A stretch of DNA of 64,000 nt from Burkholderiaceae bacterium (GTDB taxonomy: Bacteria > Pseudomonadota > Gammaproteobacteria > Burkholderiales > Burkholderiaceae_E). Both the position numbers and the translations under genes were made by a program. The notes under the pieces are model-generated. The model was not told where the DNA came from and did not search any database. It was given only the letters and a program-made list of their open reading frames with translations. This document shows positions 11,833-56,642 of this stretch, piece by piece (position 1 is the stretch's first letter; each line of letters begins with the position of its first letter). Where the stretch lies: contig JAHBZV010000007.1 in assembly GCA_019635275.1 (NCBI GenBank), positions 1-64,000 of the forward strand. Reading direction: 5' to 3'.

Positions 11833-12258
11833 TCATCTCACCAGCAGCACCGGCACCTTCGAGATCTCGGCCACCCGCTTGGCGACCGAGCCGATCAGCA
11901 GGTCCTTCAGCGCGCTGCGTCCCTTCGAGCCCATGACCAGCAGGTCGAACTTGCCACGCTCCGCTGCCTCGACGATCTCGGTCGCGACGTGTCCGGTGCG
12001 GATGATCATGTCGTGCGAGACGCCGGCCTTGTCGAGCGTCTTGCGCGCGTCGGCGAGGTCCTGCTCGCTCAGCTCGCGAAGGTAGTCGGCCACCGCTTCC
12101 TTGCCCACGAAGCGACGCGCGTGCCTGAGCGCGACGTCGTCGTGCACGCTGATCAGCGTGATCGATCCGCCCTCGGACACGCGCCCGAGCAGCTGGATCG
12201 CGTACTTGACCGCGTGTAGCGCGTTCTTCGATCCGTCGGTGGCGACGAGCATCTTCAT
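11833..12258 (-). CDS. Universal stress protein, UspA family
   Basis: A 141-residue single-domain Usp. The N-terminus [20 protein letters not shown] and the C-terminal ATP-binding signature [24 protein letters not shown] (G-x2-G-x9-G-S/T) are intact, so it is probably of the ATP-binding type. Cytosolic; role in stress survival by family. Its start codon overlaps the ubiX stop by 4 bp (ATGA), so it is translationally coupled to ubiX, an uncommon pairing. Confidence 0.92.
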
Positions 12259-12851
12259 CGGGATTCTCCTTCTTCGGCGGCGCGCAGGCCGCCCCAGCGC
12301 GGGGCCAGCCGGTGCTCGACCCCGAACAGGTCGAGCACGCGTGCGCAGGTATGGTCGATCAGGTCGTCGATGCCCTGCGGCCTATGGTAGAACGCGGGCA
12401 GCGGCGGGAAGACGATGCCGCCCATCTCGGTGACGGCGGTCATGTTGCGCAGGTGCGCGAGGTTCAGCGGCGTTTCGCGCGCGAGCAGCACGAGCCTGCG
12501 CCGCTCCTTGAGCACGACGTCGGCGGCGCGCGTGACCAGGTTGTCGGACAAGCCGTGGGCGACGGCGGCCAGCGTCTTCATCGAGCACGGCGCGACGATC
12601 ATGCCGTCGGTCTGGAACGACCCGGACGCGAGACTGGCCCCGACGTCACGCACGCCGTGCACCACGCTGGCGAGCGCCTCCACCTCGTTGCGCGAGCGCT
12701 GCAACTCCTGGTCGATGTTCATCCACCCGGCGGGCGTGACGATCAGGTGGGTCTCGATGCCCGGCGTCGCGCGCAGCAGCTCCAGCAGCCGCACGCCGTA
12801 GACGGCGCCGGTGGCGCCAGTGATCGCAACGATGAGTCGGCGGGAAGTCAC
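12255..12851 (-). CDS. ubiX: Flavin prenyltransferase UbiX
   Basis: A 198-residue enzyme that attaches a dimethylallyl group to FMN, making the prenylated cofactor of UbiD-type decarboxylases in ubiquinone synthesis. The family sequence is clear: [49 protein letters not shown] and [19 protein letters not shown]. The GTG start lies 6 nt after a TAGAAT box (12858-12863, minus strand), which would put the transcription start on the start codon. In related bacteria ubiX is close to grxD; here the interval holds two palindromic repeats and an insertion sequence. Confidence 0.96.
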
Positions 12852-12863: not shown

Positions 12864-12899
12864 CTTGCCGGCGCCGGCCGCGTTCGTTGGCCGGCGCGA

Positions 12900-13162
12900 G
12901 CAAAGGCGCGGGCGACGGCGCGGGCCGTCGGCCGCCGGCGCGCCTGGTGCTTGCCCCCGCTTCGCGGGGGTGCCCTGCGATGCTCGCCGCACCGGCTGGC
13001 GCGGCGAAACTCGCTCCGCGCGCTTCGCGCGCTGCGCTCAGACAGTCGCCGCGAGAATGATGGACGATGCGCGCTGCGCGCGCCGCCGGTGCAGCTGCGC
13101 TTCTCGGCTGCGCACGAGGCGCGCCGGCGGCCGACGGCCCGCGCCGTCGCCCGCACCTTTGC
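12900..13162. repeat. Long palindromic element 1 (structured repeat family)
   Basis: A 263-bp element bounded by 51-bp inverted arms (12900-12950 and 13112-13162) that match with about two mismatches. Inside are smaller perfect hairpins such as CCCCCGC-TTC-GCGGGGG (12954-12970) and a conserved core (about 12985-13055) with the motif cagacagtcgccgcg. The same core occurs reversed in element 2 at about 13360-13425, while the stem sequences differ. No protein-coding reading is convincing here. Element 1 lies just upstream of ubiX. Confidence 0.7.
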
Positions 13163-13562
13163 CGATACCGTCGTGGTGTTCGTGAGCAACGGGTCCGTCT
13201 AAGTTTCGAGTACCGATGGAGTTTCCCGAGCGACCGGCGGCGGGCCGGGCTCAGGGGCCGGGCAGCGGCAGGCGCGGGGGCTCTCGGTGCGGCGGGGCGC
13301 TGTCGGCGGCGCCGAGCAGCGCAGCTTCGGGGTCGGCGCGCGAAGCGCGCTTCGTACTTCTGACTCGCGGCGACTGTCTGAGCGGAGCTCGCGAAGCGAG
13401 CGCAGCGAGTTTCGCCGCGCGACCCCGGGGCGAGATGGTATGGACGCCTCCCACCCCTTCCCCGCGCCCCATCTGATCGGAGGTGGGGCCTCGCGCACAG
13501 CGGCATCGAGTGCCAAAGTGAGTGGTCGTGTCGAGCAACCCTCTTGTGACGGAGGCCCCGAA

Positions 13563-14594
13563 GTGAATGTTACGACGTATGCGGTGGATACGGCCAAGAA
13601 CGTGATGCAGCTGCACTGGGTCGATGGCCACACCGGCGAGATCGGCCGACGCAAGCTCAGCCGCGCCAGGTTCTTCGAGTTCTTCGCACAACGCCCCGGC
13701 TCCCACGTCGTCATGGAGGCCTGCGGGGGCTCGCACCACCTGGCGCGTCGGCTGGGCGCACTGGGCCACGACGTCGAACTGCTGCCGGCGCGCCAGGTGC
13801 GTCCCTTCGTCAGCGGCAACAAGGACGACGCCGCCGACGCACGAGCGCTGTGGCTGGCCAGCCGGCACCCCGACATTCGCCGCGTGCCCGTCAAGACCGA
13901 GCAGCAGCAGGCCGTCCTGTCGCTGCACCGCATGCGCGCGCACTGGAGCAGCGTGCGCACGGCCACCCTCAATGCGCTGCGCGCGCTGCTGTACGAGTTC
14001 GGCGTTGTCCTGCCCCGTGGCAAGGCCTGCGGACTCAAGACCCTGGCCGAGCGGCGCGCCGAGTTCGACGCGCAGTTGCCGGCGCTGATGCAGCGCCTGG
14101 TGGACCAGCACCTCGCGGCGCTGCGCCAGATGGATCTCGAGGTCAAGCGCATCGAGGCCGAGCTCTGCGCGGTGCAGGCCGCCGACCAGAACGCGCGCCG
14201 GCTGCGCGAGGTGCCTGGCATCGGGCTGCTCGGCGCCACGGCACTGTCCGCGACGCTGGGAGACGCCCGCGCGTGGCGCCGGGCGCGCGACTTCGCCACG
14301 AGTACCGGCCTGACACCGCGCCACACCGGCACCGGCGGCAAGGTCCGCATGGGCGGCATCAGCAAGCGCGGCGATCCATACATCCGCACGCTGCTGGTCA
14401 GCGGTGCACGATCGCTGCTGAACTCGCCCAGCGCCCCGCAGTGGGCCCGGCAGATGCTGCTGCGACGGCCGGTCAACGTGGTCGTGGTGGCGCTGGCCAA
14501 CAAGCTCGCCCGCACGGCCTGGGCACTGGTGGCCCACGACGGCGCGTTCGATCGCCGCTGGGGCCGCCCCGATGCGGTGGGCACGACCGGGTGA
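13563..14594 (+). CDS. IS110-family transposase (DEDD recombinase)
   Basis: A 343-residue recombinase. The N-terminal RuvC-like domain shows D9 (YAVDTAKN), E52 (VVMEACGG) and the DD pair at about 88-92 (GNKDDAADA). The C-terminal Tnp2 domain has REVPGIGLLGATALSATLGD, RHTGTGGKVRMGGISKRG and the candidate catalytic serine S280 in LLVSGARSLL. The GTG start at 13563 follows a CGGAGG site; the open frame upstream is repeat sequence. All expected residues are present, so the protein may be active. Confidence 0.92.
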   Translation: MNVTTYAVDTAKNVMQLHWVDGHTGEIGRRKLSRARFFEFFAQRPGSHVVMEACGGSHHLARRLGALGHDVELLPARQVRPFVSGNKDDAADARALWLASRHPDIRRVPVKTEQQQAVLSLHRMRAHWSSVRTATLNALRALLYEFGVVLPRGKACGLKTLAERRAEFDAQLPALMQRLVDQHLAALRQMDLEVKRIEAELCAVQAADQNARRLREVPGIGLLGATALSATLGDARAWRRARDFATSTGLTPRHTGTGGKVRMGGISKRGDPYIRTLLVSGARSLLNSPSAPQWARQMLLRRPVNVVVVALANKLARTAWALVAHDGAFDRRWGRPDAVGTTG

Positions 14595-14889
14595 CCCGCG
14601 TGCCGGACCGGGCGACGAAGGGCTGAGACGTAACGAGTGTGCGAGAGGAGTCGAGCAGGTGATGGTGAAGCGGTCAAGACCGTGGGTCGGCAAGGCAGTT
14701 GCGCTGCTCGGGCCAGCACCAGGCTGAGCCCACGGGCGAGATGTGCCCCGACCTCGCGAATGACCATCAAGGCCACGCATTCGGTGACTGCGGCCTTCGT
14801 GCCGACGTACGTGAGTGCAACCCGTAGGCCGGATATGAGACCGCAGTTGATCCGCCACACCGCCGCCTGCAACACTCCCCTTGCAGCAC
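14595..14889 (+). ncRNA. Candidate bridge-RNA region of the IS1111-type element
   Basis: A 295-nt non-coding segment between the transposase stop and the right subterminal repeat. In IS1111-group elements the guide (bridge) RNA is encoded on this side of the recombinase. I see no good ORF here. The assignment rests on position and family knowledge; I did not resolve target- and donor-binding loops. Confidence 0.35.
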
Positions 14890-15056
14890 GGGAGGCGTCC
14901 ATATAAGCAGCACAGGGAAGTCGGTGCGAAGCACCGACCGCCGTCGTCAGCGCCCCGCCGCACCGAGAGCCCCCGCGCCTGCCGCTGCCCGGCCCCTGAG
15001 CCCGGCCCGCCGCCGGCCGCGACGCGCCGAGGCCCGAACGTACGCCCCGCTCGGCG

Positions 15057-15377
15057 TCAGGCCTGCGCGGCCTGCGGGATCAGCTTCTGCAGCTCGCCAG
15101 ACTGGAACATCTCGTACATGATGTCCGATCCGCCGACGAACTCGCCGCCGATGTACAGCTGCGGAATGGTCGGCCAGTTCGCGTAGTCCTTGATGGCCTG
15201 GCGCACCTCGTCGTCTTCGAGCACGTTGACGGTGACCAGGTTCTTCACGCCGCACGACTTCAGGATCTGGATCGCGCGGCCGGAGAAACCGCACTGCGGG
15301 AACTCGGCCGTGCCTTTCATGAACAGCACGACGGGGTTTTCGGTGACGGTCTTCTGGATGAATGCCTTTGCGTCCAT
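15057..15377 (-). CDS. grxD: Monothiol glutaredoxin Grx4/GrxD type
   Basis: A 106-residue protein with the monothiol CGFS active site (C29) and the glutathione/Fe-S binding features KGTAEFPQCGFS, WPTIPQLYIGGEFVGGSDI. This family carries and delivers [2Fe-2S] clusters in the cytosol. The ATG at 15377 follows a GAGG site; a longer open frame upstream adds a proline-rich, unlikely extension. It follows prmC on the minus strand, as in other Burkholderiales, and its 3' end is 41 bp from the right arm of palindromic element 2. Confidence 0.95.
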   Translation of the reverse strand: MDAKAFIQKTVTENPVVLFMKGTAEFPQCGFSGRAIQILKSCGVKNLVTVNVLEDDEVRQAIKDYANWPTIPQLYIGGEFVGGSDIMYEMFQSGELQKLIPQAAQA

Positions 15378-15459
15378 GAATGCCTCGGGAGGGTCGGGAG
15401 TGCCCGGGTCGGGCAATCGTCGATTCTAGGAACGAGCGGAACCCATCGTCAAACCGGGG

Positions 15460-56566: not shown

Positions 56567-56642
<76 letters not shown>

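Follow-up and report, generated by a model that had tools for sequence, protein, structure and literature searches.

A multicopy mobile palindromic repeat of Burkholderiales with a selected core fold and outer stems apparently kept by arm-to-arm copying

Two neighbouring palindromic elements, E1 and E2, found in a window of 64,000 nucleotides (the whole stretch of DNA analysed here, the start of contig JAHBZV010000007.1 of a Burkholderiaceae bacterium), belonged to a multicopy repeat family and were not a chance resemblance. The family is mobile as well as multicopy, and its core is a fold under selection. Its extended arms are, unusually, mostly private palindromes, apparently maintained by copying from arm to arm, a mechanism that we infer from a directly observed pattern. 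On balance we lean towards reading E1 and E2 as a divergent pair of interspersed mobile palindromic repeats of Burkholderiales, with a core that works as a folded strand and a stem that is copied between its arms.

The composite repeat occupied positions 12895-15022 of the window and comprised E1, a spacer and E2, whose core was inverted relative to that of E1 and was split by an IS110-family insertion sequence. It was flanked by two genes running in the same direction, both named from a reading of their translations, and lay downstream of grxD (15057-15416, minus strand) and upstream of ubiX (12255-12851, minus strand). E1 (12895-13165, minus strand, outer limits approximate) carried arms at 12900-12950 and 13112-13162 (plus strand), a 51-nt inverted repeat that was 96% complementary and whose longest exact run was 38 nt (12908-12945 with 13117-13154). 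Its conserved core matched the profile at 12937-13124 on the minus strand, the one that gives it the same sense as E2 and is likely the functional strand. The spacer (13166-13229) was conserved in part across aligned copies. The arms of E2 (13230-13311 and 14939-15020, plus strand) formed an 82-nt inverted repeat, again 96% complementary, within which 69 bp were exact (13234-13302 with 14948-15016). The E2 core matched the profile in two plus-strand segments, 13297-13436 on the 5' side of the insertion and 14904-14954 on its 3' side. Between the elements, the inner cores were homologous in opposite orientation over 136 nt (12994-13129 versus 13290-13425, 79% complementary). The preliminary description of this DNA, made from the letters alone, was thus accurate in its 51-bp and perfect 69-bp arms, its opposed homologous cores and the inner hairpins that it quoted, all of which were present in the sequence. 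Elsewhere in the window, the sole Rfam match above gathering score was a tRNA gene at 56570-56642 (minus strand).

The same description had spoken of two copies of an element family. Both elements were real, but they formed one composite unit: of 39 fetched loci that contained E1 and E2 exactly once each, 37 showed this divergent arrangement. What separated the two parts of E2 by about 1.47 kb was the IS110-family insertion. This insertion sequence (approximately 13435-14906, plus strand) sat within the E2 core at a junction that was identical in three copies examined. Its transposase gene (13563-14594, plus strand, start codon chosen) matched the IS110 transposase model NF033542 with 288.9 bits against a cut-off of 140, and Pfam PF02371 and PF01548 above their cut-offs. 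Exact subterminal inverted repeats of 14 bp were situated at 13439-13452 and 14890-14903 (plus strand). The host genome contained two more near-full copies, at 99% and 95% identity, as well as a fragment of one end, and all three near-full copies were inserted at one E2-core junction. Within the 3' noncoding part, 11 of the 12 bases at 14699-14710 (plus strand) complemented the insertion target, and this stretch may represent a bridge-RNA guide.

Copies of the repeat were widespread among relatives. With E1 as query, 32 matches were found in its own genome (some overlapping or self-complementary) and matches in 22 of 41 genomes with that genome counted, and none in the PLSDB plasmids searched. 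E2 with its flanks, taken from the same genome, matched all 18 genomes of the genus, one of them weakly (G004, E 7.5e-4). A degenerate core pattern run over GTDB species genomes returned at least 108 stretches; by record title, the 80 matches listed include Rubrivivax, Hydrogenophaga, Inhella, Aquabacterium, Rhizobacter, Variovorax and Lautropia sp. SCN 69-89. In one Rubrivivax genome, six loci had two oppositely oriented core-pattern matches with a spacing of exactly 300 bases. The preliminary description had looked to relatives for further copies, and these occurred both throughout the genus and in other genera. Profile matching in the window and in the loci fetched by place retained 174 matches, 64 to E1 and 110 to E2, of which 49 E1 and 99 E2 passed a length filter and 47 E1 and 97 E2 had sufficient flank for scoring of their arms. 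Lone elements also occurred, as a single E2 in 49 loci and a single E1 in 11. At L018 (1494-1707), E1 and E2 were seemingly fused via a shared core, as if the intervening part had been deleted, and at L022 (1650-1693) apparently just the outer arms of E1 were left beside a full E2. Near one Rubrivivax element (L217:2374-2428) we found a xanthine riboswitch (Rfam RF03054, 46.3 bits).

Comparison of the window site across relatives was consistent with mobility. In G005 and G014 the gap between grxD and ubiX was short and the element absent; G015 and G009 had a short gap as well, but no ubiX match. In the close relative G006, about 20 nt matched the outer end of E2 by eye and was taken as a remnant. 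We read the site as a gain followed by near-complete loss, a reading of the sequence that a single 20-nt tract could mislead. This gain and loss favours the transposable palindrome that the preliminary description had offered as one candidate. Its other candidate, a HEARO/omega-RNA-like or other described RNA family, was not supported, as Rfam at both gathering and lax thresholds gave nothing over the elements and only a chance-level match in the transposase gene. A Y1_Tnp (RAYT) transposase (PF01797) was detected in none of the four genomes searched, and in 5 of 14 controls. No target-site duplication could be defined at the one site compared, and neither a parent transposon nor firm terminal repeats were found; similar element ends were seen by eye in Rubrivivax loci.

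The conserved core was about 187 nt long. Folded as single-stranded DNA, the E2 element and stem of a relative (L066 in G005, rather than the window copy) reached -213.9 kcal/mol against -125.6 +/- 4.05 in 100 dinucleotide shuffles, none of which was as good (z -21.8). Among 89 E2 cores, 34 of the 63 predicted pairs showed two-sided changes, with 399 cells of two-sided change compared to 105.9 in shuffles. Cells that could pair made up 97.7%, against 89.5% in shuffles and 24-50% when partners were slid. In each of the five measures of core covariation the observed value was higher than in any of 500 shuffles or six slid controls, so the stem changes of the core were compensatory, as had been proposed from the two window copies. 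The wobble pairs were biased by strand. On the E2 plus strand, G.T outnumbered A.C by 179 to 12 on a structure predicted from that strand; because of this origin, the count was repeated on pairs predicted on both strands, giving 20 to 4 in E2 (p 0.0015) and 30 to 7 in E1 read in the E2 core sense (p 0.0002). The E1 arms, with 31 A.C and 8 G.T in the E1-plus sense, agreed with the core strand; the E2 arms had no clear strand bias (78 G.T to 64 A.C). Across 148 cores, 656 hairpins were found, 513 with triloops, of which 397 were GCGNAGC in the E2-plus sense; wobble bias and GCGNAGC triloops favoured the same strand in E1 and E2. GCGNAGC and GNA loops form unusually stable DNA mini-hairpins. Since covariation exceeded its controls and wobble pairs were strand-biased, selection on a folded RNA or single-stranded DNA is the natural reading for the core. 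Single-stranded DNA is favoured over RNA as the active form, though not proved, as GNA loops and wobble bias are compatible with RNA too.

Outer stems ranged from 22 to over 130 bp in the family, and were mostly private when long and largely shared when short. Anchored on the core, with each copy compared to five drawn other copies, the mean arm complementarity score was 59.7 with a copy's own arm and 3.7 with other copies in E2 (n=97), and 29.1 and 6.7 in E1 (n=47), a comparison in which anchoring misses sharing of the outer stem. We therefore also compared stems without anchoring, treating those of at least 50 nt as long and leaving out the outer 25 nt. Good arms were present in 91 E2 stems, 67 of them long (6 of 97 E2 and 3 of 47 E1 copies had none). 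With the outer 25 nt set aside, each of the 67 long E2 stems had a left arm that matched its own right arm, whereas only 18 of 2211 copy pairs matched each other; 26 of the 67 matched at least one other copy. Of 44 good E1 stems 11 were long, with the own partner matched in 10 of these and one match in 55 copy pairs. Stems below 50 nt were largely shared between copies (33 of 33 in E1, 16 of 24 in E2), so privacy is a property of extended stems. In the window, the E2 stem was of the long kind and that of E1 short (38 nt). Five copies in G002 (L137-L141) had nearly the same 36-bp E2 stem, unlike the private long stems elsewhere.

How the arms change was followed in 11 copy pairs picked because they were alignable. 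These contained 145 paired changes, 34 one-sided changes and 3 two-sided unpaired changes. Indel columns were common to both arms in 88 cases and not in 52, of which 42 came from the pair L126/L129; with that pair left out the count was 65 against 10. L081 had 8 extra nt relative to L012, identical in both arms and thus an exact mirrored insertion, and L069 exceeded L126 by 6 nt that differed at one position between its own arms. In 126 of 134 copies the two arms differed by no more than 2 nt in length. Mirrored multi-base insertions of this kind suggest that one arm serves as the template for the other. The preliminary description took paired change as a sign of selection on folded RNA or single-stranded DNA. 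This stands for the core, but in the long outer arms paired change cannot on its own show selection, as mirrored insertions point to copying. Orthologous sites showed a range of outcomes: mirrored changes at L076/L123 and L012/L081; hardly any change at L022/L115, with three one-sided and no paired changes; and, at L016/L114, unrelated long arms between flanks that were both about 97% identical. E1 core and spacer differed there as well, which may reflect replacement of the entire element. In G005, two copies located at separate sites (L073 and L075) had 86% of their arms in common, perhaps through recent transposition or conversion. Inversion of the core by arm exchange was also considered, and the placement of end motifs gave little sign of it: the E2 motif (n=96) was on the right only in 32 copies, left only in 1, both in 5 and neither in 58, and that of E1 (n=47) on the left only in 19, right only in 0, both in 2 and neither in 26. 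Copying thus seems not to swap the arms.

Stem length differed between genomes. The median E2 stem was 25 bp in G001 and G011, 36 bp in G002 and 57-96 bp in the nine other genomes with at least two scored copies, among which single short stems were present (24, 26 and 26 bp in G012; 26 and 26 in G017; 35 in G015; 37 in G000). The single G016 copy scored 86, with a good stem of about 27 bp; stems in G003 and G008 were about 33-40 nt including core bases, save one G008 copy extending into an imperfect repeat, and the G007 copy ran off its contig. Imperfect CGAGCC/GAGCTC-like repeats flanked one G008 element (L328) and prolonged its palindrome. The SbcD model matched in 6 of 18 genomes, always below cut-off (G001, G003, G007, G008, G011 and, weakly, G004); the other 12, in a set with several incomplete genomes, had no SbcD-like match. 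In a recA tree of 16 genomes, from which G004 and G009 were left out, G001, G003, G007, G008, G011 and G016 were separated from 10 others with support 90/95. Despite its side of the tree, G016 (65% complete) lacked an SbcD-like match. The G003 match lay in a gene of 424 aa that itself matched Mre11/SbcD models below cut-off; its protein, which we take to resemble YhaO/YhaN, was present in 4 of 18 genomes, and a 200-aa piece of a neighbouring frame matched no NCBIfam family. SbcC gave weak matches in all 18 genomes, mostly as short pieces, and was thus uninformative alone. Mre11/SbcD-like hairpin nucleases may cap stem length, which with one tree contrast, the G016 exception and several incomplete genomes is a lead only.

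Under the reading we lean towards, the core of about 187 nt acts as a folded single strand in one fixed sense (E2 plus, E1 minus), a fold and strand indicated by the pattern of pairs, and the active strand would more likely be single-stranded DNA than RNA. A putative enzyme would recognise the folded core and move the element. The outer stem could be extended by sequence that is not conserved, and template switching between arms during replication or repair would write the substitutions and insertions of one arm into the other, with hairpin nucleases as a possible check on length. That this makes up a new class of mobile DNA, in which folded single-stranded DNA with GCGNAGC mini-hairpins carries a stem rewritten by hairpin-primed arm copying, giving long-stemmed copies private and near-perfect palindromes whose length is limited by a host nuclease of the Mre11/SbcD type, is a bolder proposal that we consider possible but doubtful.

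Other explanations would place the repeat in RNA. One, which we consider possible but doubtful, is a structured noncoding RNA in the E2-plus sense, in which ordinary compensatory selection would maintain core and stem alike and which could be antisense to the 3' end of the gene next to it. Covariation and strand-biased wobble pairs fit such an RNA, as does a fixed polarity: with genes guessed from codon bias, 90 of the 93 cases that could be scored had the outer end of E2 towards the 3' end of a gene. Against it, mirrored multi-base insertions are hard to obtain by independent mutation, Rfam returned no match, and the triloops were GCGNAGC, where tetraloops are usual in RNA. The same polarity, together with the very stable fold, could also be expected of an element that serves the neighbouring gene as a terminator or stabilises the 3' end of its mRNA, and that spread because strong hairpins were selected. 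We regard this as unlikely: the favoured strand is opposite to the neighbour's mRNA, a terminator does not need a conserved 187-nt core, and the E1 side was mixed (of 49 by the same guess, 18 towards a 3' end, 8 towards a 5' end and 23 unclear).

Selection for pairing alone could in principle keep arms mirror-perfect without any copying, and the one-sided changes, including all three between L115 and L022, speak for it; the excess of indel columns mirrored in both arms makes it an improbable account. Palindromes might finally be products of assembly, as several fetched contigs ended in or beside elements and most named genomes were MAGs. This is very hard to credit, given that similar arms recurred at orthologous sites of separate assemblies (95% for L022/L115, 89% for L076/L123) and that G005, with 41 matches, was assembled into 4 contigs, one of 3.73 Mb. 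The repeat makes it possible to trace compensatory change in dozens of long stems from related genomes, many of them at orthologous sites, and mirrored insertions help to tell copying from ordinary compensatory mutation. It also carries a warning that paired change, the usual mark of functional RNA, can come from DNA copying. If true, the nuclease lead would provide a natural example of hairpin-cleaving enzymes limiting palindromes.

We found no description of this repeat in the open-access journal literature covered. Several known systems resemble it in part. Like REP, BIME and REPIN sequences as described in PMC1525189, the copies were dispersed, intergenic, palindromic, often in inverted pairs (37 of 39 loci with E1 and E2) and targets of IS110-family elements. 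REPs are given as 20-40 bp in PMC3733652, a palindrome size well below that found here, where the core alone measures about 187 nt and the stems run from 22 to over 130 bp; the repeat also differed from REPIN-RAYT systems in that all four genomes searched lacked Y1_Tnp. Dispersed noncoding copies with insertion polymorphism are shared with MITEs, from which the repeat differs in that neither a transposon as parent, nor a duplicated target, nor firm terminal repeats were found. The long perfect inverted repeats, of up to 284 bp, reported in PMC6649704 for Nematomorpha are comparable in form, although the Nematomorpha repeats are located within protein genes of an animal mitochondrial genome and ours in a noncoding bacterial repeat family. 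Template-switch corrected hairpins offer a further parallel. According to PMC8794818, template switching can make and mend stems, and ordinary compensatory mutation poses a long-standing dilemma; the likeness lies in multi-base paired changes that arise when one side of a stem is copied from the other. That source predicts an excess of G-C over C-G and of U-A over A-U in the 5' arm. Here, G over C held (0.496 and 0.331 in the E2 5' arm) and T over A did not, being near-equal in E2 (T 0.088, A 0.084) and reversed in E1 (A 0.127, T 0.074). The hairpins treated in that source are short stems of RNA genes, whereas the repeat described here has long noncoding stems, in many copies and at orthologous sites.
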